Assembly (NCBI RefSeq): GCF_000236705.1
Contig: NC_016599.1
Location: 868,001 to 932,000 of the forward strand
Source of the DNA: Owenweeksia hongkongensis DSM 17368
Lineage (GTDB): Bacteria > Bacteroidota > Bacteroidia > Flavobacteriales > Schleiferiaceae
Length of the DNA stretch: 64,000 bases
Direction of reading: 5' to 3'
Position numbers and translations under genes: made by a program. A model generated the notes under the pieces. It worked only from the letters and a program-made list of their open reading frames with translations. It was not told the origin of the DNA and made no database searches. Shown one piece after another: positions 13,736-45,371 of the stretch. Within the stretch, counting starts at the first letter, position 1, and each line of letters starts with the position of its first letter.

Positions 13736-14803
13736 ATGGATTATAAAAAAGGAAGAGGAGCACAAATAAATACGCATAATCGCTTTGCGCAAAACAACTA
13801 CGAGGTAGAAGATGAGTATCTGGAATTTCTACGATTGAATGATGAAGATACTAGTTTGGAGCAAAAGACGAAGTTCATTGAGGTTTACCCAAAATCTATT
13901 GTAAACAAGGTTGCAAGCCCGGACGTGGGCATGGCCTGGAGTATGAACCCGTACCAAGGCTGTGAGCATGGTTGCACCTATTGCTATGCTCGTAATTCAC
14001 ATGAATATTGGGGCTACAGTGCCGGAAGCGAGTTTGAGCAAATCATTTTGGTAAAGAAAAATGCTCCACAACTTTTAGAGAAGCATCTACAGAAAAAATC
14101 CTGGGAGCCAGAGCCTATTATGCTCTCTGGAAATACGGATTGTTACCAGCCCGCTGAAGCCAAATTTGGCATAACCCGAAAACTATTAGAAGTATTATTA
14201 AAGTACAAAAATCCAGTAGGCATTATTACCAAAAATGCACTCATTCAGCGTGATTTAGATATACTGAAAGAACTGAATAATTATGGCTTGCTAAAAGTGA
14301 GTTTGTCCATCACAAGTCTGGAAGAAGGTCTGAGAAGAAAACTGGAGCCTAGAACAGCTTCTGTAAAACGAAAGCTTCAAACCATTGAGCTATTTGCCAA
14401 ACATAACATCCCTGTAAATGTAATGATGGCCCCTATTATCCCCGGTTTGAATAGCCATGAGATTTTGCCTTTAGCCAAAACTGTATCTGATGCGGGAGCG
14501 CTTTCTATAAACTACACCACGGTAAGGCTAAATGGACAAATTGGTGAGATTTTTCTGGATTGGTTGGATCACAATTTTCCCGACCGGGCACAAAAAGTAA
14601 AACACCAAATAGAAGAACTACACGGTGGTAATTTGAATGACTCAGAATATGGACGAAGGATGCGTGGTGATGGCAAGATAGCCGAACAAATACGCAGTTT
14701 ATTTATGCTTGCACGGAAAAAGTACTTTAAAGGGAAGGCAATGCCCGAGTATAATTTTGAGCATTTTGTACGAGCCCCAAAAGGACAAATGGAATTATTC
14801 TAG
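13736..14803 (+). CDS. PA0069/SplB-like radical SAM protein
   Basis: This 355-residue protein has the radical SAM cluster motif CEHGCTYC (C76, C80, C83), here a CX3CX2C signature followed by YARNSHEYWG. Further features are the SGNTDCYQPAE stretch, TKNALI, the SITSLEE strand and VNVMMAPIIPGLN. These match the PA0069 (Rv2578c) branch related to spore photoproduct lyase. The family binds a 4Fe-4S cluster and cleaves S-adenosylmethionine; its substrate is not established. The gene is alone, divergent from fabI and convergent with a small lipoprotein gene that it overlaps by 4 nt. Confidence 0.88.
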   Translation: MDYKKGRGAQINTHNRFAQNNYEVEDEYLEFLRLNDEDTSLEQKTKFIEVYPKSIVNKVASPDVGMAWSMNPYQGCEHGCTYCYARNSHEYWGYSAGSEFEQIILVKKNAPQLLEKHLQKKSWEPEPIMLSGNTDCYQPAEAKFGITRKLLEVLLKYKNPVGIITKNALIQRDLDILKELNNYGLLKVSLSITSLEEGLRRKLEPRTASVKRKLQTIELFAKHNIPVNVMMAPIIPGLNSHEILPLAKTVSDAGALSINYTTVRLNGQIGEIFLDWLDHNFPDRAQKVKHQIEELHGGNLNDSEYGRRMRGDGKIAEQIRSLFMLARKKYFKGKAMPEYNFEHFVRAPKGQMELF

Positions 14804-15009
14804 TCTAGAATACAAACCACACTTTGCCCATTCGCATTGAAAGTATCCTGCTGATCTTCACATTCACTTTTTGCATCGTCCTCCTTTATGCTTTGGTATT
14901 CATACTCCTGCGTGTAACCATCTTCCGTGCATACGCACGTGTATTCTTTTCGGCAAGAACTCAAAATTACTACAGCAGCCACGGCTCCGATATACAGTAC
15001 ATTTTTCAT
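14800..15009 (-). CDS. Small Cys-rich lipoprotein (paralogue A)
   Basis: This 69-residue protein has a lipoprotein signal peptide (VVILSSC). The mature part reads CRKEYTCVC, then an acidic stretch, then SEC and VVC, giving four Cys besides the lipidated one. The same spacing pattern (CxK-YTCxC ... C ... C) occurs in the 63-residue protein at 16083-16274. The start at 15009 is chosen because it begins the signal peptide; an in-frame start at 15054 would add 15 residues in front. Function is unknown. It sits beside a membrane protein with a thioredoxin-like CxxC domain, which may act on its cysteines. Confidence 0.75.
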   Translation of the reverse strand: MKNVLYIGAVAAVVILSSCRKEYTCVCTEDGYTQEYEYQSIKEDDAKSECEDQQDTFNANGQSVVCILD

Positions 15010-15096
15010 AAAACTACAAGTGAAGGTTTTAAATATTGGCTTGTTTAAGCACACACCGAATATAAGAAAACAACGAACCTAATTGTCTACTTAATA

Positions 15097-16008
15097 TTAG
15101 CTTTTACCATTCAGGAAGTTTGTGATTTCTTTTTCGTCAATAGTTCTGTAATTCATCTCAGAAATAACTTTTCCATCTTCAATTAACAATGTCAAAGGCA
15201 TCATTCCTTTAGTAATACTCAAGAAAGGTTCGCGAGGTAAACGTGAAAATTCAAAAACCTGAGAATGCGTTTCTTCAAAAAACTCAATGGGATTTCCACT
15301 CATTCCTCCAAAAATAATATTTACTTGAGACCTTTGGATGTCATTTTTTCTAACTAAAGCAGAGATACGTTCGGACGACATTTTACAGTACTTACATTTC
15401 ATGCTATAAAAACTAAGCATCTTTCGCCCTTTTAAAAATTTTGTGGAAATTTCTCCATTAGCAATCGCATCATCTAATGCAGTCTGATTGTATTCTGCCG
15501 AATTGAATTGTCCTTTTACAAAAAGATCTGGTGGAGAAATTACAAAAGGTACAATAACAGAAGCTGCAAAAACCAAACTCACCACTAGCTGCTTAAGACG
15601 AAAATCGAATGTAACATCATCTTTCCTTATCAGTAATAATAGACCGATAAGTACCACGTTTTTTAGGAGTGATTCAGCTGGGGACATTTCCATAAGCTCT
15701 CCTAAACAAAAACAGTTTTCATCGCTACCAAGCAGCAACTGTTTTGCTAAGAAGCCAGTCAGAACTAATATAAACAGAAATGTAAGTCTCCAAATAGCTT
15801 TATAACCTAGCTTAAAAATAATTCCAACACCAGCTATTATTTCTGCCGCAACTATCAATCTAGCTACCACACTTGCTCCGTCAAATGAAAGAAAACTAGA
15901 TCTGAAAACATACACCTCGAATGCCCCCATTGCATCGAGCTTTCCATAGGCTGAAAAAATAAAAAACACCCCAACGATGAGGCGAAGAGCAAGTTTTAAC
16001 CACTTCAT
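15097..16008 (-). CDS. MauE/DoxX-like membrane protein fused to a thioredoxin-like domain
   Basis: This 303-residue protein begins with about five membrane segments (residues 5-21, 47-68, 72-92, 113-127, 140-157). They form a MauE/DoxX-type domain with a CFC motif (C99, C101) after the third segment. From about residue 165 a periplasmic domain follows with C205-K-Y-C208, a thioredoxin-type CxxC. MauE is needed for disulfide-rich methylamine dehydrogenase, and related membrane domains pass electrons to or from thioredoxin folds. The likely role is thiol-disulfide exchange in the periplasm. It lies between two genes for small Cys-rich lipoproteins, which are natural candidate substrates; that link is inference. 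Confidence 0.8.
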   Translation of the reverse strand: MKWLKLALRLIVGVFFIFSAYGKLDAMGAFEVYVFRSSFLSFDGASVVARLIVAAEIIAGVGIIFKLGYKAIWRLTFLFILVLTGFLAKQLLLGSDENCFCLGELMEMSPAESLLKNVVLIGLLLLIRKDDVTFDFRLKQLVVSLVFAASVIVPFVISPPDLFVKGQFNSAEYNQTALDDAIANGEISTKFLKGRKMLSFYSMKCKYCKMSSERISALVRKNDIQRSQVNIIFGGMSGNPIEFFEETHSQVFEFSRLPREPFLSITKGMMPLTLLIEDGKVISEMNYRTIDEKEITNFLNGKS

Positions 16009-16031
16009 AATTCAAAATATTAAGCACAAAA

Positions 16032-16059
16032 AAAAGCTATATTTTTCAATATAGCTTTT
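16032..16059 (-). terminator. Rho-independent terminator of the 16083-16274 gene
   Basis: Perfect 11-bp arms AAAAGCTATAT/ATATAGCTTTT surround a 6-nt loop. On the minus strand the stem ends in a T-rich run. It separates the lipoprotein gene from the MauE-like gene, so they may be only partly co-transcribed. Confidence 0.8.
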
Positions 16060-16082
16060 CAAGTATTAAAACTTTTAGAGTC

Positions 16083-16274
16083 TTACTTCAACTCACACTC
16101 AGATCCGCCAGCTTCTAGAGCATCACAAGCGTCCTCAGCATCTCCTTTCTTTTGGTCTTCTAATTCAAAACTTGTTGATACACCAAGAATAGTACATTCA
16201 CATGTGTAATCTTTTTTGCAGCTAGCCAATGAACCGATAGCAGCGATAGCGAATACGAAAAGTAATTTTTTCAT
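16083..16274 (-). CDS. Small Cys-rich lipoprotein (paralogue B)
   Basis: This 63-residue protein has lipoprotein signal peptide AIGSLASC. The mature part reads CKKDYTCEC, then an acidic helix-like stretch, then DAC and SEC. Its four non-lipid Cys match paralogue A (14800-15009) in order and approximate spacing. Two disulfides or a metal site are possible. The two paralogues flank the MauE/thioredoxin-like gene, all on the same strand. No known family is recognised. Confidence 0.75.
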   Translation of the reverse strand: MKKLLFVFAIAAIGSLASCKKDYTCECTILGVSTSFELEDQKKGDAEDACDALEAGGSECELK

Positions 16275-32538: not shown

Positions 32539-35500
32539 TTATTCAATAATAATTTTCTTTTGCCAAAATTCTCCGGCACTACCTTCTACATTAATAATGT
32601 ACTGGCCATCAGGTAAGTGATTAACGTCAATCTTTAGCTTACCAGATTCAATACCCGTTGTGCTTTGGTTTAGCACTTTCTTACCCGAAATATCATTAAT
32701 CTGAATTTCCTTAATACTCAACTCGGAATTATCCCAGACAAGATTCAGCTGATCGTTTACTGGATTTGGATAAATTTTAATACTCTTGATGGCTTTAATC
32801 TCTTCAAGCCCAATTTGATTAAGCTTAAAAGCTTTAGTATGTGAAGTTCCACAAGCATTTTTTACAGTAAGCTTTACCAAATAAGTAAGACCCGGTGTAA
32901 TATAAGTGTGAATAGGATTAACACCCGTACCCGTATTTCCATCACCAAAATCCCAATCATAGCTTACTGCATTGGCTGAAGCAGAACCATCAAATTGCAC
33001 ATTCATACCTGCTCCTGTGGTAGAAATAATATTATACGTCCAGCTGGCCAATGCTGGTGCACAGGCAATTATATTTTTAGAAACGGTAACGCTGTCTCCA
33101 CAATCATTGAATGCTGTGAGCGTAACTGTTTTGGTACCTGACGAAGTAAATTTAAAAGTGATACTTGTTCCCGTTGTATCTGTACCATCAATTTTCCATT
33201 TAAAGAAAGTTGCATTGGTTGAACTTGAAGCGTCAAATCTTATAGAATCAGCAATGGGTGTTTGACTAAAGTCCGCTTTTAAGGTATCACACACCTGAAT
33301 GGTGTCAAACACTACCGTTGTATCACCACAATCAGAAAATGCATTCATAGCTACAGTATAAGTTCCAGGCATACCATATAAGTGATTGGGATTAATGGCT
33401 GATGAATTTGATCCATCGCCAAAGTCCCAATACAACGAGTCAGCATTGGTGGTACTCCCCGAGTTAAAATCCACCCTTAGCCAGCTATTGATGTTGGCAA
33501 ACGAAGCCCCTATTGAAGGACATACTAAAGTAGTTTGATTGGCACTTGCCCATGCACTCAGGTTGCCCGCGCCACAACTATCTCTCACATAAAAGTCGTA
33601 AGCAGTAGAACTAGCAAGGCCAGTAATCGTAAAGGGATTTGTATTGGCCACCACTAAAGTTCCTGCACCTTGGGTAAACCCGGATGGGCCATACTCTATT
33701 AGCCAACCACTAGTTCCCCCAGAAGTCCAACCCAATGTGACTGAACTTGCTGTAGCACCAGTAGTAACAAGATTTGATGGCTTAGGGCAAGTTGGTTGCT
33801 CATGCACACTCAAATCATCTATCGCTATGACTGCGTTAAGTGCTGACGTTGTAGTTCGGTAACCTATAAACCTTACCTTGATAAAGTCATTTGCATACGC
33901 TGAAATATCTACAGTGGCTTCCTTCCAGGCATCTGCTTTAGAAACTTGTTGTTGCCCTACAAGTGCAAACTCGCGGCTCCAGTTGTACCCATCAAAAACT
34001 TCTATAACAAGTGAATCTATACCTGCTCCAAACATGTGATACCAAAAGCTTAACTCTGGTGTATTCAAAGGAATGGTGTTGATTATTGGAGAAACCACGG
34101 TACCACTTTTGGATTGATCCGCTGTACCAAGGTTATTCTGCGCATGCAGAAATTTACCGGTGCCAGAGGTATGATCAACTGATGGCCCTGTAAAAAAGGT
34201 GCTAACCATTTGACGAGCTCCCCAAACATAATTCACACTATTGTCTTGTTTCCAACAGGGATCTATCTTTCCTGCTACATATGTGGTGTTAGGAATGATC
34301 CAACTATTTCCATCAAATGTTTCTAAATATGGCGCTAGCACGGGTATGCAATCCGTTGTATCCCTCACCGGACCTATCCATTCAGACACATCTGCAAGAC
34401 CACAACTATCACCTAAGTAAAACTTGTAACCCGTATTAGCCGTAAGGCCAGTTATGGTAAATGGATTACTGGCTGCATTTACTATGGTTCCAGATCCCGG
34501 TGTAAAACCTGAAGGGCCATATTCTATATTCCAATTGCTAGCTCCACCTGTTGTCCATTGCAGGGTAACGGAGTAATTGGTAGTTCCTACAACGACTAAA
34601 TCCTGAGGGTTAGGACAACTAGGCCCTTCATGAATATCTACATCATCAATGGCTACATCAGCAAACGATCCAGAACCCAGTTTGTCTGCTACAAAACGAA
34701 CTCGAACTGTATCATTTGCATAAGCTGATAAATCTACTACTGCTTCTTTCCAGGCATCAATATCTGAATATTGTTGCTCACCAGATTTGCTCCATACCTG
34801 AGTATATCCATTTCCCTTATCCACTTGCACCGCAAGAGTGCCAATATTAGGACCAAACATATGATACCAAAAACTCAATTCAGGATTAATTAATGCACTG
34901 AGATCAATGGAAGGCGATTCTATGAAGGCTGAGAAGGACCCGGAACCTACAGAGAACATGCTAGATTCTGCGTGTATAAAATTTCCATTACCAGAGGTAT
35001 GATCAGCTGCCGGACCAGTAAGATTGCCACTCGATACTTTAGGCCCAGGATTCCAAAAGTAATCTACCAATGGGGTTCTGACCCAACACTGACCGACAGT
35101 TCCAGTATCGTCCATACCTATACCTCGCCCCCATTGACTTCCGTCAAAATTCTCAGTAAACGGTGCCAAAAGTGGTAAACAGTCTGTAGAAACACTAATT
35201 GGCCCTACCCACAAACTGGTATCTGTAGTGCTGCAAATATCTCTCACATAAAAATCATAACTCGTTGAGCTGTTCAGACCATTTATGATGAAAGGGTTTG
35301 TATTAGCTAATACTCTTGTGCCCGTGCCCAAAGCAAACCCTGAGGTTCCGTATTCTATATTCCAGTTATTGGCGCCTCCACTAGTCCAACTTAAGGTAAT
35401 ACTATCAAGCCCTTTGGCTGCAACGCTAAGATTACTTGGTCTTGGGCATGTTGGCTGCTCATGGATATCTATATCATCAATAGAAATTGGTGCACCAGCT

Positions 35501-37725
35501 ACTATCTTCTGGTAGTAACTAAATTTTAACTTAATAGTATCATTTGCATAATAGCTCAGATCAATTAGGTATTCTTCCCAAGGTGCAGATTGAGATAGTT
35601 GCTGTTGCCCAACTATTACTCCTCCTCTATTCCAGGCTTGCCCATCAAAAACATCAATCCTTAGAGAGTCGATACCACTTCCAAACATATGATACCAAAA
35701 AGAAAGTTCCGGCACGTTAAGAGGTGAAAGATCAATCAGTTTTGACTCTACATATCCTACTAATGAACCTCCATATGATGATCCAATACGATTCACTCCA
35801 GACAAAAATTTACCTGTTCCACTGGTATGATCAGCAATTGGTCCTGAGAAAAAAGCTCCAGCCGATGGTACTGGAACCATTTGATAGTTTACCAAATCAT
35901 TTCTACGCCAACATATATCAAGGTTTCCCCCAGTTCCAAATGTTAAAACTACCCACTGGGGGCTATCAAAATTTTCGGTATATGGCGCTGCCGCAGGATT
36001 ACAATCCGTTTTACCGTTAATAGGCCCTACCCAAGCCGAAACATCAGTAGCCCCACAACTATCTCTTACATAAAAATCATAGGTGGTACTTGCTGAAAGC
36101 CCATTAACTACAAAAGGATTGGAGTTAGTATTTACCATCGTACCATTTCCTTGCGTGAAGCCAGTCGGGCCATATTCTATTTGCCAATTGGATGCACCAC
36201 CACTCGCCCATTGCAGTACGGCCGTAGTATTAGTCAATCCCACTATGGTTAAATCTTGAGGTTTTGGACAAGTAGGCTGTTCGTGTATATCTATATCATC
36301 AATAGAAATCCAAGCATAAGATCCGTTTGTTAGTTCACGATAATAAGTAAATCTTAGTTTTATAGTATCATTTGAATAGGCACTCATATCTATGACATAT
36401 TCTTCCCAAGGATCTGACTTAGCAGCTTGCTGTGAGCCTACAATACAAGCTTCTTTAGTCCAGCTTTTGCCGTCAAATATATCTACTCGAAGTGAGTCAA
36501 TATGCATACCAGCCATGTGGTACCAAAAGGATAACTCAGGAACAGTCAAAGGACTTAAGTCAATCAATTTAGACTCGATTGCACCTGACGCTGAGGGGGT
36601 CGCGTTAACCCCAACTACTCGAGCTGACAAAAATTTACCTGTGCCTGTGGTATGATCAACTAATGGTCCTGAATAAAACCATGTGACCGTATTGGTTGGC
36701 ACCATTTGATAGTTCACTGTTTCATCACGATACCAGCATGGTCTCAAGTTCCCAGGAGCGGCAACCGTACCAAGAGTCCATTGTGCACCATCAAACGTTT
36801 CTGTATAAGGCGCTATGGCTGGCAAACAGTCTGTGCCTGCCTCAATAGGCCCAATCCATGCTGAAACATCGGTGGCACTGCAACTATCTCTTACATAAAA
36901 CTCATAGTCAGTATTTCGAGAGAGTCCCTTTACTACATATGGGTTGGAGTTAGCACTTACCAAAGTTCCGGTTCCAACTGTAAATCCTACAGGACCATAT
37001 TCAATTTGCCAATTTGAAGCACCACCAGACTGCCAACTAAGTGAAGCCGAAATATTTGTTGTTCCCACCAAAACCAAATCCTGAGGTTTAGGACACGGTG
37101 GAACTTCATGAATATCTATGTCGTCAATAGCTACATCTCCAGAAACGCCCGTACTAGTTTGGTAAGAAATGAACTTTAACGTTATTGTAGAATCAGCGTA
37201 AGAAGCCAAGTTTATTGTAGCCTCCCTCCATGCGTCTGCTTTAGCTGTTTGCTGTTGCCCTGTTTTTGCAAACACAGAAATATAACTTACACCTCCGTTA
37301 GTTGAAACAAAAACCTCTAGCAAGTTAACATCCGCACCAAACATGTGATACCAAAAGGTAAGCTCCGGCACCGTTAGAGCTGATAAATCTATCTGAGGAG
37401 TAATTATTTTCGCTGTATCAGGAAATATTCCAAATGTTGTTCTTTCGGAGAAAAGATACTTGCCACTACCCGTGGTATGATCACCAGATGGACCGGATTG
37501 TGAAGACGAAAGCTGTGATGGACCAACTTTCATTAAAAAATGACTCTGATAATCCCGTTTGAAGCAGGTATCAATAGTTCCATTACTAGAAAAACCAGAT
37601 CCCGTATTCCAGTCAGAAGATTCAAAATCTTCTGACCAAGGAGCAGAAACCGTTGAACAAGGAGTGGTTTGACCTACCAACAGTTGAAAGGTTGTTAATA
37701 GAAATAATAGATATTTATATTTCAT
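32539..37725 (-). CDS. Giant T9SS surface protein A: 5 MAM-like, 5 FN3, 3 PKD domains
   Basis: This 1728-residue secreted protein has a signal peptide (MKYKYLLFLLTTFQLLVGQ). Five alternating modules follow: a MAM-like jelly-roll (FDG..W, CW.RD, DHTSGTGKFL, PELSFWYHMFG, IDDIDIHEQPTCPKP) and a fibronectin III domain (WQIEYGP, ASTTYDFYVRDSCG). Three PKD-type domains come next (LYWDFGDGSN, FKWKIDGTDT, YDWDFGDGNT), then a T9SS type A sorting domain (IKIYPNPVND). Such modular proteins are generally cell-surface adhesins or secreted matrix proteins. The protein is a paralogue of the 2512-residue product just upstream; the shared PKD region is nearly identical at the DNA level. No enzymatic domain is seen. 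Confidence 0.9.
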   Translation of the reverse strand: MKYKYLLFLLTTFQLLVGQTTPCSTVSAPWSEDFESSDWNTGSGFSSNGTIDTCFKRDYQSHFLMKVGPSQLSSSQSGPSGDHTTGSGKYLFSERTTFGIFPDTAKIITPQIDLSALTVPELTFWYHMFGADVNLLEVFVSTNGGVSYISVFAKTGQQQTAKADAWREATINLASYADSTITLKFISYQTSTGVSGDVAIDDIDIHEVPPCPKPQDLVLVGTTNISASLSWQSGGASNWQIEYGPVGFTVGTGTLVSANSNPYVVKGLSRNTDYEFYVRDSCSATDVSAWIGPIEAGTDCLPAIAPYTETFDGAQWTLGTVAAPGNLRPCWYRDETVNYQMVPTNTVTWFYSGPLVDHTTGTGKFLSARVVGVNATPSASGAIESKLIDLSPLTVPELSFWYHMAGMHIDSLRVDIFDGKSWTKEACIVGSQQAAKSDPWEEYVIDMSAYSNDTIKLRFTYYRELTNGSYAWISIDDIDIHEQPTCPKPQDLTIVGLTNTTAVLQWASGGASNWQIEYGPTGFTQGNGTMVNTNSNPFVVNGLSASTTYDFYVRDSCGATDVSAWVGPINGKTDCNPAAAPYTENFDSPQWVVLTFGTGGNLDICWRRNDLVNYQMVPVPSAGAFFSGPIADHTSGTGKFLSGVNRIGSSYGGSLVGYVESKLIDLSPLNVPELSFWYHMFGSGIDSLRIDVFDGQAWNRGGVIVGQQQLSQSAPWEEYLIDLSYYANDTIKLKFSYYQKIVAGAPISIDDIDIHEQPTCPRPSNLSVAAKGLDSITLSWTSGGANNWNIEYGTSGFALGTGTRVLANTNPFIINGLNSSTSYDFYVRDICSTTDTSLWVGPISVSTDCLPLLAPFTENFDGSQWGRGIGMDDTGTVGQCWVRTPLVDYFWNPGPKVSSGNLTGPAADHTSGNGNFIHAESSMFSVGSGSFSAFIESPSIDLSALINPELSFWYHMFGPNIGTLAVQVDKGNGYTQVWSKSGEQQYSDIDAWKEAVVDLSAYANDTVRVRFVADKLGSGSFADVAIDDVDIHEGPSCPNPQDLVVVGTTNYSVTLQWTTGGASNWNIEYGPSGFTPGSGTIVNAASNPFTITGLTANTGYKFYLGDSCGLADVSEWIGPVRDTTDCIPVLAPYLETFDGNSWIIPNTTYVAGKIDPCWKQDNSVNYVWGARQMVSTFFTGPSVDHTSGTGKFLHAQNNLGTADQSKSGTVVSPIINTIPLNTPELSFWYHMFGAGIDSLVIEVFDGYNWSREFALVGQQQVSKADAWKEATVDISAYANDFIKVRFIGYRTTTSALNAVIAIDDLSVHEQPTCPKPSNLVTTGATASSVTLGWTSGGTSGWLIEYGPSGFTQGAGTLVVANTNPFTITGLASSTAYDFYVRDSCGAGNLSAWASANQTTLVCPSIGASFANINSWLRVDFNSGSTTNADSLYWDFGDGSNSSAINPNHLYGMPGTYTVAMNAFSDCGDTTVVFDTIQVCDTLKADFSQTPIADSIRFDASSSTNATFFKWKIDGTDTTGTSITFKFTSSGTKTVTLTAFNDCGDSVTVSKNIIACAPALASWTYNIISTTGAGMNVQFDGSASANAVSYDWDFGDGNTGTGVNPIHTYITPGLTYLVKLTVKNACGTSHTKAFKLNQIGLEEIKAIKSIKIYPNPVNDQLNLVWDNSELSIKEIQINDISGKKVLNQSTTGIESGKLKIDVNHLPDGQYIINVEGSAGEFWQKKIIIE

Positions 37726-37832
37726 TTCAAGCTTATTGTGTTAACTCCTGAATTAATGAAAATAAACATTTTTTTTGCACCACACGAAGTTTCTAATCAA
37801 TTGACTTCTTGAAAGTTAAAGCTTTTCTAGTT

Positions 37833-40800
37833 CTATTTTATTTGAATTTTCTGTTGCCAGAATTCACCAGAGGTACCATCTGCACTGATAATGTATTGGC
37901 CTGCCGGTAAGTGACTAACATCAATGGAAAGTTTACCCGAGTTATCATCAAGCACGTTTTGTTTGAATAACTGCTTACCAGAAATACCATTTATACGAAC
38001 CTCTTTTAAAACCAGTTCAGATCCACTCCAAATCAGCTCTAAATAATCACTTGCCGGGTTAGGATAAACTTTGATACTTTTAACAACTTCAATCTCAGTC
38101 AATCCTATTTCATTAAGCTTAAAGGCTTTGGCATGTGGGGTTCCACAAGCATTTTTTACAGTAAGTCTTACTAAATAGGTTAAACTTGGTGTGATGTATG
38201 TATGCTGAGGACTGACACCTGTACCTGAATTTCCATCGCCAAAATCCCAATCATAGCTTACGGCATTAGTGGAAGCCGATCCGTCAAACTGAACATTCAT
38301 ACCTGCGGATGTGGTGGATATAATATTGTATGTCCAACTGGCTAGAGCGGGTGGACAAGCATTCACATTTTTAGAAACAGTAACACTGTCTCCACAATCA
38401 TTGAATGCTGTGAGCGTAACTGTTTTGGTACCTGACGAAGTAAATTTAAAAGTGATACTTGTTCCCGTTGTATCTGTACCATCTATTTTCCATTTAAAGA
38501 AAGTTGCATTTGTTGATGCTGAAGCATCAAATCTTATGGAATCAGCTATAGGAGTTTGACTAAAGTCGGCTTTTAAGGTATCACACACCTGAATGGTGTC
38601 AAACACTACCGTTGTATCTCCACAATCAGAAAATGCATTCATAGCTACAGTATAAGTTCCAGGCATACCATATAAGTGATTGGGATTAATGGCTGATGAA
38701 TTTGACCCATCGCCAAAGTCCCAATACAACGAGTCAGCATTGGTGGTGCTACCTGAATTGAAAGCTACACTTAACCAGCTATTGGTGTTGGCAAAGGAGG
38801 CTCCTATTGATGGACATGTTAAAGTAGTTCTACTGGCACTGACCCATGCACTCAGATTGCCCACTCCACAACTATCCTGGATGTATACATCATATCCCGT
38901 ATTGCCTTGCAAACCAGAAACCACAAGTGGGGAGTTTGAGTTTGGATAAAATGTTCCACTACCCTGTGCTTGACCAGACTCTACCACTTCTACCGTAGCA
39001 TTTGCCGAGCTTACCCAATTTACGGTAAAGCCCGTTGCATTTACTGATGTAAAAGAAATACCTGCTGGGGCTGAGCATGATACGGGGTCGCTTATTACGC
39101 TAACCTCATCAATACATACATCTCCAGCAATTCCAGAGTTGGTCCCAATAAATTTAAACCTCACTGTATCTCCAGAGTAAGCGGTGAGCATTATAGAATC
39201 TACCAGCCAAGCGGCCGCATTAGAAAATTGCTGCTGACCTGTATACGTTTTCACATTGGCCCCAAATCCGCTACCATTATCTATTTGAATAGTCATAGAA
39301 GTGATACTATTACCAAACATGTGATAGGCATATTTGAACCTTGGGTTTTGAAGCGAACTTGGGATGTAAATAAATGGAGTCGTAATTTCTCCAGCACCTG
39401 ATGCCCCGCCACTTGCTTCTGTGTAGATATAATTTCCTGAGATGGAAACATCACTAAGGGGTCCAGTACCACCACTTGAGGTTGTACCCGAACCTGTTCC
39501 AAAATTTGGGTTACTAATGCTAGGCCTTGACCAGCAATTGCTAATCTGGTTACCAACATTACCAAGACCAGTTCCTTCTACCCACACAGACCCATCAAAG
39601 TTTTCAGCCCATGGAGCAGTAGCCACTCCGCAAAGTGTAGTACCTATTTCAGGCCCATTCCATATACTCACATCACCTGCCGTACAACTATCTTTTATAA
39701 AAATGTCATAACTCGAAGATGGACTCAAGCCATTTATAACAAATGGATTTGTGGAGGCTGGAACTATAGTAAGTGCAACAGAAGTACCGGATGGCCTATA
39801 CCCAACTAACCAGTTGCTGGCACCACCTGTAGTCCAGCTTATTGTAATACTGGTATTAGTAGATGTTGTAACTGCCAAGTTTTGTGGCTCCGGACAGCTT
39901 GGTTCTTCATCAATAGTAAGGTCATCAAAAGCAACATCAGCTGCTGTAGTAAAACTTGCTTTTGTTGCCTTTATTCTTACGACAATTGTATCATTGATGT
40001 AAGATGCTAAACTTACCACTGCCTCATCCCAAGGATCTGTGTTGGAAGTATGTTGTTGCCCTGTTTTGGACCATACCTGTGTAAAACCAGTTCCATTATC
40101 TATCTCTACTGACATGCTGCCTATACCATTTCCAAACATATGGTACCAAAAACGCATCTCTGGAGCTGCTAAAGAACTTAGATCTATTGGCGGAGTTTCT
40201 AAGAAAGCATCAAATGGTGCAGTACCGCCACCAAAAACAGATTCTGCAAAAACATACTTTCCAGATCCTGTGGTGTGATCGCCAGAAGGCCCTGTAAAGG
40301 TCGGTGGAAAAGGTATTGGGCCAGTTCTCCAAAAATAATTAGTCAAAGGTGTTCTCACCCAGCATTGATCTACACTCCCAGTATCATTAAAGTTTGGTCC
40401 AGACTGCCAAATTACACCTTCAAAATCTTCACTATATGGTGCTAGCACTGGTAAGCAATCTGTAGATTTAGTTACATATCCTAACCAGTCGCTCACATCT
40501 GCTGTACCGCAGCTATCACGAACATAAAAATCATAAGTGGTGGAACTGAGCAATGCATTAATTGTAAAAGGATTTGTAGCAGCTGCCACAATGGTTCCTG
40601 CTCCCTGGGTAAAACCTGAGGGGCCATATTCTATTTGCCAATTACTTGCACCACCGGTAGTCCAACCCAAAGTAACGGAGTTTGAGGTAGCGGCTGTAGC
40701 TACAAGGTTAGAAGGTTTAGGGCAACTTGGTTGTTCATGTACACTTAAATCATCAATTGCTATAACTGAGTTAAATGCAAAAGTGGAATTTCTATAGCCG

Positions 40801-43800
40801 GTAAACCTAACTTTGATAGTATCATTCGCATAGGCGGAAATATCTACTATTGCTTCTTTCCAAGGGTCAGTTTTAGATATCTGTTGTTGACCTGACAAAG
40901 TCAGCTCTTGACTCCAAGATGCACCATCATACAGCTCCAAAACAAGTGAATCAATATCAGCTCCAAACATATGATACCAAAAGCTTAATTCAGGGGTATT
41001 AAGAGGAACTGTATTAATGAGTGGCGAAACCACTACTCCATTATTAGATTGGGTAACTGTACCAAAAGTACGGTGTGTATAAAGAAATTTACCTGTACCA
41101 GAAGTATGATCTGCAGATGGACCTGTGGTAGCTGTAGTTACAGTTTGGCGTGCACCCCAAACGTAGTTTACAGTATTATCCCTGTCCCAACAGGGATCAA
41201 GATTACCAGCCACAAAAGTGCTTGGCGGAACAACCCATGAATTTCCATCAAATGTTTCAAGGTATGGTGTGGTGACAGGATTACAATCTGTGGTATCACC
41301 TACAGGACCTACCCAATCAGAAACATCTGCCAGACCACAGCTATCTCTTACATAAAATTCATAACCAGTACTTGCAGAAAGTCCTGTAACGGTAAATGGA
41401 TTGGTTGTGGCATTTACAATAGTACCAGTTCCTAAGGTAAAACCTGGTGAACCATATTCTATATTCCAACCTGTAGCTCCACCAGTAGTCCATTGTAGGG
41501 TAACAGTGCTATTGGTTGTACCCACTACCAAGAGGTCCTGAGGTTTTGGACAACTAGGCGCTTCATGAATGTCTATATCATCAATAGCTGCGTCAGCCTG
41601 AGTATTAAAGCTGGCTTTATCAGCCTTAAAGCGAATCTGAATAGTATCATTTGCATAAGGAGCTAAGCTTATTACCGCTTCTTTCCAAGCCTCTGTACCA
41701 GAATTTTGCTGTTGACCTGATTTAGTCCATACCTGTGTATATCCACTTCCATCATCAACTTCTACAGTAAGGTTACCTATGGCATTACCAAACATGTGAT
41801 ACCAAAAAGTAAGTTCAGGAACTGTTAACGCACTAAGATCAATTAATGGTGATTCAATAAATGCGTCAAATGGAGCTGTTCCACCCCCAAAGATAGATTC
41901 GGCATATATATATTTACCGTTGCCTGTAGTGTGATCTACCGCTGGTCCAGTAAATGTAGAAGGAAAAATTGGTGGGCCGGGTTTCCACAAATAATTGGAC
42001 AAAGGAGTTCTGGCCCAGCATTGCCCAATACTACCAGTGTCATTGAAATTTGGTCCAACTGCCCATGGACTTCCGTCAAAATTTTCGGTAAAAGGAGCTA
42101 AAAGGGGTAAACAGTCAGTTGTGGCATTGATAGGACCAACCCAAAAGCTTGTATCAGTAGCACTACAACTATCTCTTACGTAAAAATCATAGCTCGTTGA
42201 GCTATTTAACCCTGTTACCGTAAACGGGTTTGTGGTGGCAGTAACCCTTGCACCTGTACCTATAGTAAACCCTGGTGTTCCATACTCAATATTCCAATTG
42301 GTGGCTCCACCGGTAGTCCAACTTAAGGTAACAGAATTGGATGATGTTGAACTTAAAGTTAAGTTACTGGGCTTAGGACACGTTGGCTGTTCATGAATGT
42401 CTATATCATCAATACAAATAGTCGAATTGAAGGCAAAGGTGGAATTTCGATAGTAGGTAAATTTAAGCTTTATAGTATCATTTGCATAACTACTAATATC
42501 CACAAGATACTCTTCCCAAGGATCAGTCTTTGCAGTTTGCTGCGATCCAATAATGGCTCCACCTCTACTCCAGCTTTGGCCATCAAAAATATCTATGCGC
42601 AAAGAATCGATATCAACCCCAAACATGTGATACCAAAAGGTAAGCTCTGGAATAGTGAGCGCTGTAAGGTCAATCAGTTTTGATTCAACCTCTCCTTCCA
42701 TAGATTGGCCTAGTGTGCCAAAAAAACGCTGTGCAGCCAAAAACTTACCGGTACCTGAAGTATGATCTATGCTGGCCCCGGTAGAGAATGAGGTGACAGT
42801 AGTTACAGGTGTCATTTGATAGTTTACTGTTTCATCTCTACCCCAGCATTGGTCAATATTCCCTGGAACAGTAAATGTTCCAATAGTCCATTGTGATCCA
42901 TCAAAATTTTCTGTGTATGGTGCACTCACCGGGTTACAATCTGTCTTACCAGTCACTGGCCCTAACCACAACGAAACATCATTGGCGCCACAACTATCTC
43001 TTACATAAAAATCATAAATAAAGTTTGGAGAAAGACCAGTAAGAACAAAAGGGTTAGCGTTGGTATTGACCTTAGTACCATTTCCTGGGGTAAAGCCTGT
43101 TGGCCCGTATTCTATTTGCCAATTAGCAGCACCACCACTTGTCCATTGTAGCGAAGTAGTTGAATTTGTAACTCCTAACAACATCAAATTTTGGGGCTTG
43201 GGGCATGTTGGCTGTTCATGAATATCTATATCATCTATAGAAATAGCTGAGTTAAAAGCAAATGTGGAATTTCGATAGTAGCTAAATCTCAACTTTATAG
43301 TATCATTTGCATAAGCACTCATATTTATAATATACTCCTCCCATGCATCCGCTTTAGCTGTTTGTTGTTGCCCAATAATAGCACCGCCTCTACTCCAGTT
43401 CTGACCATCAAAAATATCAACTCTCAAAGAGTCTATATCTCCACCAAACATATGGTACCAAAAAGAAAGCTCGGGAACAGTTAGTGACGAAAGATCAATT
43501 AATCCAGACTCAACCACACCGGAATTGGATTGAGCCAAGGTTCCAAAAAACCTTTGTGCAGACAAAAATTTGCCTGTTCCACTGGTATGATCTACGGATG
43601 GCCCAGTGCCAAAACTGGTGGTAGAACTCATAGGAGTCATTTGGTAATTCACTGTTTCATCGCGATACCAGCAGGCATCTATATTTCCAGGAACAGTAAA
43701 TGTTCCAATTGTCCATTGAGAACCATCAAAGTTTTCGGTATACGGAGCTACAGTTGGAAGACAAGCTGTTCTTGCAAATACAGGACCTATCCAAGCTGAT

Positions 43801-45371
43801 ACATCTGATATTCCACAACTATCTCTCACATAAAAATCATAATCGGTACTAGCGCTTAAACCTAAAACCACAAAAGGGTTGGAGTTAGCATTTACAATCG
43901 TTCCATTTCCTTGAGTAAAACCTACCGGGCCGTATTCTATTTGCCAATTGGAAGCTCCACCGCTTTGCCATTGCATAGATGCTGAGTTGCTCGTTGCTCC
44001 CAACAAAACAAGATTTTGAGGCTTAGGGCAACTCGGCTGTTCATGAATATCTATATCATCAATTGCCAAATCTCCTCCCGTACCTGCTGTTATTTGGTAT
44101 GAAATAAACTTCAATTGAATAGTGTCATTGGCATAAGAAGATAAGTTTACCACAGCCTCTTTCCACGCATCAGCAGAACTCGTCTGCTGTTGACCTTGTT
44201 TCGAAAAAACTGATGTATAACTTGCCCCTCCATTATTAGACACAAATACTTCCAGTAAATTAACATCAGGACCAAACATGTGATACCAAAAAGACAGTTC
44301 GGGTATAGTAAGTGGTGATAAATCAATTGGAGGAGAAACTATATGTGCGGTGTCTGGAAAAGTACCAAACTGAATTCTTTCGGAAAACAAATATTTACCC
44401 GCCCCTGAGGTATGATCACCTGAAGGACCAGAGTTAAATGGCAAAAACTGTGGTGGGCCAACTTTCATTAAAAAATGTCCTTGATAATCGCGATTAAAGC
44501 ATGTATCAATTGTTCCCCTTCCAAAAAAGCCAGTACCCGTATTCCAATCTACCGACTCAAAATCTTCAGACCATGGAGCAGCAGTAACTGCGCAGCTAGT
44601 TCTAAAAGACTGGATACTCGTCCAAAAACTCACATCAGCAAGCCCACAACTGTCTCTCAATCTAAACTCATAACGCGTACTAGGGTTGAGACCACTTAAA
44701 GTATATGGATTTGTGGACATTGGCAACATTGTGCCACTACCAGGGGTAAATCCCACGGGTCCATATTCTATCTGCCAATTAGAGGCACCTCCTGTAGTCC
44801 AACTAATATTGGCGCTGGTAGCCGAAATAGATCCTACTGACACCGCGGAAGGTGGCAAACAGGTAGGTGCCGCCACGTGATGAACTGTAATTTTATAAGA
44901 GTTATTTACTATTCTTTGAGCTGTAGTAGAGCACCCTCCACCGGTAAAAGATCTAAACGCATGAAGCTTAAACTGCAATCCCCCAGTGGGTACTAATCCA
45001 TTTGCAATAGAAATTCCATTTCTTGAGTAAGATTGTGTGCCATTGCCATTTGTAGGTGGCCCAAAAGTTACACTTGCCTCCTTGGTGCTTGTGGTTACAC
45101 ATTCTAAATAGGAACTTTGCTCACTTATCCAATCATTATTTAAAGCCATAAAATCATACTCCACATCAATTGCTGTAACATATCTTCCCGCGGGAACGGG
45201 CACATTTAGTATTCCAGGACAGCTGGAATTTAAGCTTATTGTGGTAGTGCCTGTAAAGTGATCGCTTGATATATTTCCGGCTGAATACGTGGCTATAGTA
45301 GTAGTTTGGGCAAAAGCTGAATTGCTAAATAAAAGTACAGAGAATAGGTAGGCTAGATAATATTTTAACAT
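37833..45371 (-). CDS. Giant T9SS surface protein B: 7 MAM-like, 8 FN3, 3 PKD domains
   Basis: This 2512-residue protein has signal peptide MLKYYLAYLFSVLLFSNSAFAQ and a unique N-terminal domain of about 160 residues (TTTISLNSSCPGILNVPVPAGRY). Eight FN3 domains then alternate with seven MAM-like domains, followed by three PKD domains and a T9SS sorting domain (IKVYPNPASD). MAM modules 2 and 3 are almost the same (both DGSQWTIGTFTVPGNID), pointing to recent internal duplication. Calculated size is well over 250 kDa. With its paralogue downstream (107-nt gap, same strand) it probably forms an adhesin pair. The gene pair fills over 12 kb. Confidence 0.9.
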   Translation of the reverse strand: MLKYYLAYLFSVLLFSNSAFAQTTTIATYSAGNISSDHFTGTTTISLNSSCPGILNVPVPAGRYVTAIDVEYDFMALNNDWISEQSSYLECVTTSTKEASVTFGPPTNGNGTQSYSRNGISIANGLVPTGGLQFKLHAFRSFTGGGCSTTAQRIVNNSYKITVHHVAAPTCLPPSAVSVGSISATSANISWTTGGASNWQIEYGPVGFTPGSGTMLPMSTNPYTLSGLNPSTRYEFRLRDSCGLADVSFWTSIQSFRTSCAVTAAPWSEDFESVDWNTGTGFFGRGTIDTCFNRDYQGHFLMKVGPPQFLPFNSGPSGDHTSGAGKYLFSERIQFGTFPDTAHIVSPPIDLSPLTIPELSFWYHMFGPDVNLLEVFVSNNGGASYTSVFSKQGQQQTSSADAWKEAVVNLSSYANDTIQLKFISYQITAGTGGDLAIDDIDIHEQPSCPKPQNLVLLGATSNSASMQWQSGGASNWQIEYGPVGFTQGNGTIVNANSNPFVVLGLSASTDYDFYVRDSCGISDVSAWIGPVFARTACLPTVAPYTENFDGSQWTIGTFTVPGNIDACWYRDETVNYQMTPMSSTTSFGTGPSVDHTSGTGKFLSAQRFFGTLAQSNSGVVESGLIDLSSLTVPELSFWYHMFGGDIDSLRVDIFDGQNWSRGGAIIGQQQTAKADAWEEYIINMSAYANDTIKLRFSYYRNSTFAFNSAISIDDIDIHEQPTCPKPQNLMLLGVTNSTTSLQWTSGGAANWQIEYGPTGFTPGNGTKVNTNANPFVLTGLSPNFIYDFYVRDSCGANDVSLWLGPVTGKTDCNPVSAPYTENFDGSQWTIGTFTVPGNIDQCWGRDETVNYQMTPVTTVTSFSTGASIDHTSGTGKFLAAQRFFGTLGQSMEGEVESKLIDLTALTIPELTFWYHMFGVDIDSLRIDIFDGQSWSRGGAIIGSQQTAKTDPWEEYLVDISSYANDTIKLKFTYYRNSTFAFNSTICIDDIDIHEQPTCPKPSNLTLSSTSSNSVTLSWTTGGATNWNIEYGTPGFTIGTGARVTATTNPFTVTGLNSSTSYDFYVRDSCSATDTSFWVGPINATTDCLPLLAPFTENFDGSPWAVGPNFNDTGSIGQCWARTPLSNYLWKPGPPIFPSTFTGPAVDHTTGNGKYIYAESIFGGGTAPFDAFIESPLIDLSALTVPELTFWYHMFGNAIGNLTVEVDDGSGYTQVWTKSGQQQNSGTEAWKEAVISLAPYANDTIQIRFKADKASFNTQADAAIDDIDIHEAPSCPKPQDLLVVGTTNSTVTLQWTTGGATGWNIEYGSPGFTLGTGTIVNATTNPFTVTGLSASTGYEFYVRDSCGLADVSDWVGPVGDTTDCNPVTTPYLETFDGNSWVVPPSTFVAGNLDPCWDRDNTVNYVWGARQTVTTATTGPSADHTSGTGKFLYTHRTFGTVTQSNNGVVVSPLINTVPLNTPELSFWYHMFGADIDSLVLELYDGASWSQELTLSGQQQISKTDPWKEAIVDISAYANDTIKVRFTGYRNSTFAFNSVIAIDDLSVHEQPSCPKPSNLVATAATSNSVTLGWTTGGASNWQIEYGPSGFTQGAGTIVAAATNPFTINALLSSTTYDFYVRDSCGTADVSDWLGYVTKSTDCLPVLAPYSEDFEGVIWQSGPNFNDTGSVDQCWVRTPLTNYFWRTGPIPFPPTFTGPSGDHTTGSGKYVFAESVFGGGTAPFDAFLETPPIDLSSLAAPEMRFWYHMFGNGIGSMSVEIDNGTGFTQVWSKTGQQHTSNTDPWDEAVVSLASYINDTIVVRIKATKASFTTAADVAFDDLTIDEEPSCPEPQNLAVTTSTNTSITISWTTGGASNWLVGYRPSGTSVALTIVPASTNPFVINGLSPSSSYDIFIKDSCTAGDVSIWNGPEIGTTLCGVATAPWAENFDGSVWVEGTGLGNVGNQISNCWSRPSISNPNFGTGSGTTSSGGTGPLSDVSISGNYIYTEASGGASGAGEITTPFIYIPSSLQNPRFKYAYHMFGNSITSMTIQIDNGSGFGANVKTYTGQQQFSNAAAWLVDSIMLTAYSGDTVRFKFIGTNSGIAGDVCIDEVSVISDPVSCSAPAGISFTSVNATGFTVNWVSSANATVEVVESGQAQGSGTFYPNSNSPLVVSGLQGNTGYDVYIQDSCGVGNLSAWVSASRTTLTCPSIGASFANTNSWLSVAFNSGSTTNADSLYWDFGDGSNSSAINPNHLYGMPGTYTVAMNAFSDCGDTTVVFDTIQVCDTLKADFSQTPIADSIRFDASASTNATFFKWKIDGTDTTGTSITFKFTSSGTKTVTLTAFNDCGDSVTVSKNVNACPPALASWTYNIISTTSAGMNVQFDGSASTNAVSYDWDFGDGNSGTGVSPQHTYITPSLTYLVRLTVKNACGTPHAKAFKLNEIGLTEIEVVKSIKVYPNPASDYLELIWSGSELVLKEVRINGISGKQLFKQNVLDDNSGKLSIDVSHLPAGQYIISADGTSGEFWQQKIQIK

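Follow-up and report, generated by a model that had tools for sequence, protein, structure and literature searches.

A MauE-thioredoxin membrane protein paired with small four-cysteine lipoproteins across the class Bacteroidia

We describe a three-gene locus, located in a 64,000-nucleotide stretch of the Owenweeksia hongkongensis DSM 17368 genome (hereafter the window), in which a fusion of a MauE-type membrane domain and a thioredoxin-like (Trx) domain is encoded between two small cysteine-rich lipoproteins. The association of the two protein types recurs throughout the class Bacteroidia and, on balance, we favor with modest confidence the view that the three genes form one system, in which a periplasmic disulfide-forming or disulfide-shuffling enzyme, MauE/MauD-like, acts on a variable family of lipoproteins. 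MauE and Trx domains were already known; the lipoprotein family, its pairing with the enzyme, a short partner protein and a terminator arrangement are absent from the libraries and papers searched, and a literature search of open-licence PMC papers returned no description of the lipoprotein/MauE-Trx pairing.

The locus

The three genes are encoded on the minus strand, in the order lipoprotein A (16083–16274), MauE-Trx fusion (15097–16008) and lipoprotein B (14800–15009). Lipoprotein A (63 aa) has a signal peptide, the lipobox LASC19, Lys21, the motif Cys25-x-Cys27, Cys50 and Cys60 (...LASCKKDYTCECT...C...C). Lipoprotein B (69 aa), whose start is an ATG inside an 84-aa GTG-initiated ORF, has the lipobox LSSC19, Lys21, Cys25-x-Cys27, Cys50 and Cys66 (...LSSCRKEYTCVCT...C...C), so that a protein with five cysteine residues lies on either side of the fusion. 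The two lipoproteins are 40% identical over 52 aa (E = 1.1e-9, in a search of the 4.0-Mb genome), and no other significant match, that is, no third paralogue, was obtained in the same genome. At the DNA level, the pattern CxK[DE]xxCxC occurs at four places of the genome, A and B being two of them, vs. one place for the reversed control. The motifs, the gene order and the common strand reported in a previous sequence-only reading of this locus are all present, and the paralogy that it claimed for the two lipoproteins is beyond chance.

A convergent gene at 13736–14803 encodes a 355-aa protein with radical-SAM-like cysteine motifs, its 3' end sharing 4 bases with the lipoprotein B gene; the congener G001 has this neighbor as well. 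Elsewhere in the window (32539–45371), two very large minus-strand ORFs, of 1728 and 2512 aa, adjoin each other.

The MauE-Trx enzyme

The fusion protein (303 aa) contains five predicted transmembrane helices (TMH), followed by the thioredoxin-like domain. Its N-terminal part matches the Pfam MauE model (PF07291; 57.3 bits, cut-off 27, residues 1–126), in line with the domain assigned beforehand, and no Pfam match of its own was obtained for the Trx domain. In the AlphaFold2 model (pLDDT 88, pTM 0.82), the five helices are recovered and the Trx domain starts at about residue 195, with a predicted fold that matches those of ResA, CcmG and TlpA (Foldseek; ResA, probability 1.00, E about 3e-4), which are reductases in vivo. 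The Cys99-Phe-Cys101 motif of the MauE domain (15706–15714, minus strand) is located in the loop between TMH 3 and TMH 4, which is predicted to be periplasmic since it contains no lysine or arginine and five aspartate or glutamate residues. By the positive-inside rule, loops 2-3 and 4-5 would lie in the cytoplasm together with the N-terminus, and the CFC loop and the Trx domain in the periplasm.

The Trx active site, C205-K-Y-C208 (15385–15396, minus strand), is invariant in alignments A1, A4 and A7, and Pro271 (15196–15198, minus strand), the candidate cis-proline of the Trx fold, is likewise invariant in the alignments; together, Cys205, Cys208 and Pro271 provide the CxxC motif and conserved proline that characterize a thioredoxin-like extracytoplasmic oxidoreductase. 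A single-sequence scan of the genome contigs with the fusion gave no match, and the search with a tighter alignment retrieved 495 relatives. Among the 81 fusion proteins whose loci are analyzed below, CPHC is the commonest active site (37/81), followed by CSHC, CPFC, CKYC and CPYC; CPHC is the active site of DsbA and CPYC that of DsbG. The CxC motif of the MauE domain is absent from 14 of the 81 proteins.

The lipoprotein family

In both A and B, the lipobox cysteine (LASC19 and LSSC19) is preceded by a basic N-terminus and then a hydrophobic segment, as expected for a lipoprotein, and these features are conserved in 65 relatives. For surface export of lipoproteins by the Bacteroidota signal LES, the optimum in Capnocytophaga is C-X-K-(D/E)2-X after the lipid cysteine (PMC5080379); the sequence here is C-K-K-D-Y, with lysine at position +3 in 175/184 cases and aspartate or glutamate at +4 in 135/184, the second acidic residue being absent.

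Beyond the lipid cysteine, four cysteine residues are present in 137 of 144 non-redundant lipoproteins, six in 6 and three in a single one, which is probably truncated. Three variants (two in one genome of family f35 and one in family f48) have lost C2 and C4 together, i.e., they keep the first cysteine of CxC and the helix cysteine, the second cysteine of CxC and the last one being lost. Since the mature cysteine residues are even-numbered and lost in pairs, we propose two disulfides per lipoprotein, and the even counts together with the few paired-loss variants point to C1-C3 and C2-C4 as the putative connectivity.

For mature lipoprotein A, a beta-beta-alpha-beta fold is predicted (pLDDT about 83–92), for which nothing better than E = 0.7 was found in the PDB with Foldseek. 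The sequence profile had no match among PDB chains, and the mature cysteine domain is not covered by any model of Pfam or NCBIfam; lipoprotein B gave weak matches in PHROG (E = 0.0036), one of them to the Cor superinfection exclusion protein. The family members are mostly shorter than 90 residues and, apart from the cysteine residues, their mature sequences are very variable; histidine and methionine each make up about 0.5% of the mature residues and neither is conserved. Paralogues at one locus have a median identity of 50% in the signal peptide vs. 34% in the mature part, so that the leader appears better conserved than the core, as in RiPP precursors, a resemblance that is only suggestive.

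At locus L162, a 120-aa ORF upstream of the fusion carries the four-cysteine module behind two GCT..A.NY...A..DDGSC repeats; because the lipid cysteine lies there outside the cysteine frame, the module is separable from it. In families f18 and f20, a second family of small cysteine-rich lipoproteins (CKKCxxC...YPEvCg...C) accompanies the fusion and four-cysteine lipoprotein genes: it is encoded downstream of the fusion in L156, L158, L161 and L163 and adjoins the lipoproteins in L178 and L186.

Pairing across Bacteroidia

We surveyed 395 species-representative genomes of the class Bacteroidia, in which ORFs were called mechanically, with search profiles derived from the family members found in this analysis. 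The fusion profile matched 79 of the 395 genomes, three of which matched at the N-terminus alone and were set aside, leaving 76 with the fusion; the lipoprotein profile matched 155 of 395 at E ≤ 1e-3. Gene adjacency was scored for 81 fusion genes on 80 stretches, of which 76 came from the class sample and four from the window's own family. A same-strand lipoprotein gene is present within 1 kb of the fusion in 64 of the 81 loci, in 19 of 20 GTDB families: upstream only in 52 loci, on both sides in nine and downstream only in three, the lipoprotein genes often being in tandem. The remaining 17 loci have no adjoining lipoprotein gene; ten of them belong to family f56, and these genomes have lipoproteins elsewhere. 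Other neighbors are common to 113 of 271 locus pairs within families vs. 52 of 2889 between families and, since they are so rarely common between families, the lipoprotein and fusion genes do not belong to a longer block of fixed gene order.

The co-occurrence search that the sequence-only reading had suggested was run on the 395 genomes, with the lipoprotein at E ≤ 1e-6 and either the fusion or the short form described below as partner: both are present in 76 genomes, the lipoprotein alone in 14, the partner alone in 17 and neither in 288, counts that ignore phylogeny. Partner genes are nearly always accompanied by a lipoprotein. In a set of 119 relatives, lipoproteins are present in five genomes, all five of which also have the fusion; the congener G001 has the identical three-gene order and G008 a single lipoprotein gene directly upstream of the fusion. 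The pairing also holds for divergent members, as in genus g3, where a fusion without CFC has a distinct five-cysteine lipoprotein (C[ND]KRVDCLCT...) upstream in 5/5 loci. A second, overlapping and less complete sample of 80 loci from Bacteroidota MAGs is in agreement: of the 77 that were scored, 36 have one to four upstream lipoproteins and 41 have none, 29 of the latter forming one clade that comprises the 29 loci nearest to the query.

The lipoproteins had been proposed to be dedicated substrates or carriers of the fusion protein. The functional link implied by that proposal is strongly supported by the adjacency in 19 of 20 families, the co-occurrence and the homologous short-form Trx protein that takes the position of the fusion where the latter is missing; the direction is not, since a genome can encode as many as 14 lipoproteins, often at sites other than that of the partner gene, and the fusion is missing from 25 of the 90 lipoprotein-bearing genomes. 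Lipoproteins without the fusion, which would speak against a dedicated role if they occurred regularly, are therefore found in part, 11 of those 25 genomes having the short form. The term fits better when reversed, the enzyme depending on the lipoproteins more than the lipoproteins on the enzyme. Outside Bacteroidia, full-length fusions without a lipoprotein are found in family f97 (L302–L306), which indicates that this kind of enzyme predates the pairing or extends beyond it; these f97 genes are often located beside pabB/pabA-like genes.

The short-form partner

In 8 of 20 inspected loci without the fusion, the lipoprotein gene lies beside a gene (on the same strand in seven, convergent in one) that encodes a membrane protein of 195–235 aa with a C-terminal Trx-like domain, whose active site is CPYC, CPFC, CPHC, CKYC or CHSC. 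This short form aligns to the last TMH and the Trx part of the fusion (hhalign, 99.2%). Strong matches came from 16 of the 395 genomes, all of them lacking the fusion, and in family f25 a third lipoprotein type (CKKQECCKLLTAKFC...NCD) is encoded directly upstream of it. Since the short form stands in for the fusion, the constant core would be a membrane-tethered CxxC domain and a small lipoprotein with a cysteine frame. The MauE dithiol is optional or dispensable, since CxC is missing from some fusions, as counted above, and nothing but the last TMHs and the Trx domain is retained in the short forms. Possible tandem remnants of the short-form gene were observed at G423:C2:128732-129898, and an in-frame stop was reported within the match at G276:C28:114568-115161.

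A hairpin between lipoprotein A and the fusion

A terminator-like hairpin, GAAAAGCTATATT-GAAA-AATATAGCTTTTT followed by a T-run, is present between the lipoprotein A and fusion genes (16031–16060, minus strand; z = -4.5). It is absent from the list of a GC-based terminator scan, which missed it because the stem is AT-rich. Comparable hairpins are found in 38 of 56 lipoprotein-to-fusion gaps vs. 2.9 expected from shuffles, and in 27 of 119 control gaps between other same-strand neighbors (p = 1.4e-8), a comparison in which some control gaps may lie between distinct transcription units and related loci do not count as independent cases. Such a terminator would give abundant lipoprotein mRNA and scarce enzyme mRNA, which fits the roles of substrate and catalyst. 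A regulatory hairpin was also considered between the fusion and lipoprotein B genes, where folding is no better than that of shuffles.

Proposed mechanism and alternatives

In the mechanism that we propose, the lipoproteins would be exported and then lipidated on the first cysteine, each mature domain being a beta-beta-alpha-beta unit held by two disulfides, for which C1-C3 and C2-C4 are the likeliest pairs; in lipoprotein A these would correspond to Cys25-Cys50 and Cys27-Cys60. The MauE-Trx protein would be anchored in the inner membrane. Its CxxC domain would face the periplasm, as would the second dithiol, CxC, that the membrane domain carries in most members, and the protein would install or reshuffle the disulfides of the newly exported lipoproteins in a MauE/MauD-like or DsbA/DsbG-like manner, a single enzyme serving every lipoprotein copy. 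The physical contact, the direction of electron flow, the disulfide connectivity and the periplasmic topology in this scheme are ones that we infer. Oxidation or isomerization, as proposed for MauE/MauD, is the favored reaction, because each lipoprotein apparently contains two disulfides, as many as 14 lipoproteins share one enzyme and the active sites are DsbA/DsbG-like.

The reductive direction is nevertheless a serious rival, since the nearest folds, ResA, CcmG and TlpA, are those of reductases. The lipoproteins could be redox carriers whose cysteine residues are reduced by MauE-Trx, electrons being passed across the periplasm toward the outer membrane in a DsbD- or CcdA-like way; CxC is plausible as a redox dithiol, and one enzyme with many lipoproteins could form a distribution network. 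We regard this as unlikely, since four cysteine residues retained together and lost in pairs are more readily explained by two permanent disulfides than by a single pair in exchange, the high variability of the mature sequences is unlike a redox partner, whose docking surface would be conserved, and the active sites are mainly CPHC, CPYC and CPFC. Cysteine parity, paired loss, DsbA/DsbG-like sites and the terminator, all read from sequence, would favor a two-disulfide substrate over an electron carrier.

A reduced state could also serve metal loading: four conserved cysteine residues including CxC can make a metal site, and TlpA, which is a structural neighbor of the Trx domain, reduces copper-binding proteins (4txv and 4txo are among the fold matches), so that the lipoproteins might bind a metal or cofactor through CxC...C...C, with MauE-Trx keeping the thiols reduced in a TlpA/Sco-like manner. 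To this we give little credence, considering the scarcity of histidine and methionine, neither of which is conserved, the lack of a recurring metal gene beside the inspected loci and the rise of the cysteine number by two (from four to six), in keeping with disulfides. That the genes are mere neighbors, travelling together by history without interaction, would accommodate the 14 of 90 genomes with lipoproteins and no partner, as well as the fusions without lipoproteins outside the class; it seems very improbable, since adjacency holds in 19 families while other neighbors change, a homologous short-form Trx protein replaces the fusion beside the lipoprotein, and divergent lipoprotein types adjoin the same enzyme.

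Significance

To our knowledge, the making and checking of periplasmic disulfides is poorly known in most Bacteroidota. The disulfide-forming reading would provide a pair of enzyme and substrate that is widespread and in which the gene order already indicates the likely substrate, and a clean experimental handle on the role of the MauE domain, a question open since methylamine dehydrogenase maturation. The pairing also points to a large and variable class of exported mini-lipoproteins. A further step, which we put forward as speculative and rather improbable, is that the membrane disulfide machine, in its MauE-Trx or short form, matures diversifying two-disulfide lipoproteins that interact at the cell surface with other microbes or the environment. 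The lipoproteins would then correspond, in lipid-anchored form, to secreted peptides rich in disulfides, as a family with a conserved leader, fixed cysteine residues and variable loops, in up to 14 copies per genome that are often in tandem.

Comparison with known systems

MauE and MauD participate in the maturation of the small subunit of methylamine dehydrogenase and are encoded in the methylamine utilization cluster. The system described here resembles them in having a MauE-type membrane domain and a Trx-like partner beside a gene for a small exported cysteine-rich protein. It differs in that the two domains form one fused chain, the MauE CxC motif is lost in some members, and the neighboring gene encodes, instead of a dehydrogenase subunit, a small lipoprotein that conserves four cysteine residues beyond the lipid one; no mau-like genes were seen on inspection of the neighboring ORFs of the window.

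The BT_3928 family of Bacteroidota (NF045576), which combines a MauE/DoxX domain and a Trx-like domain, is similar to the N-terminal MauE-like part of the fusion (residues 7–158), with a score of 47.9 bits vs. a cut-off of 250, and we rejected the fusion as a member. A second MauE protein of the genome, with 381 aa and encoded beside a folP-like gene (L001, 1501–2646), is the likely BT_3928 orthologue. Lipoproteins of the PG1828 family (NF050142) have a similar signal peptide and lipobox (residues 1–23); membership was also rejected, the score being 20.7 bits vs. a cut-off of 50 and the mature cysteine domain unmatched.

The C-terminal domain shares with ResA, CcmG, TlpA and StoA the predicted fold, the CxxC motif and the conserved proline, but the fusion has a five-TMH MauE-type anchor and is associated with lipoproteins and not with cytochrome c or CuA maturation. 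The closest precedent is found in Streptomyces, where candidate RiPP clusters identified with decRiPPter contain mauE and mauD homologues beside small cysteine-rich precursors, which they were proposed to modify (PMC7794033). In that case the precursors have at least eight cysteine residues and the host is an actinomycete, whereas here MauE homologues accompany lipoproteins with a four-cysteine frame in Bacteroidia.
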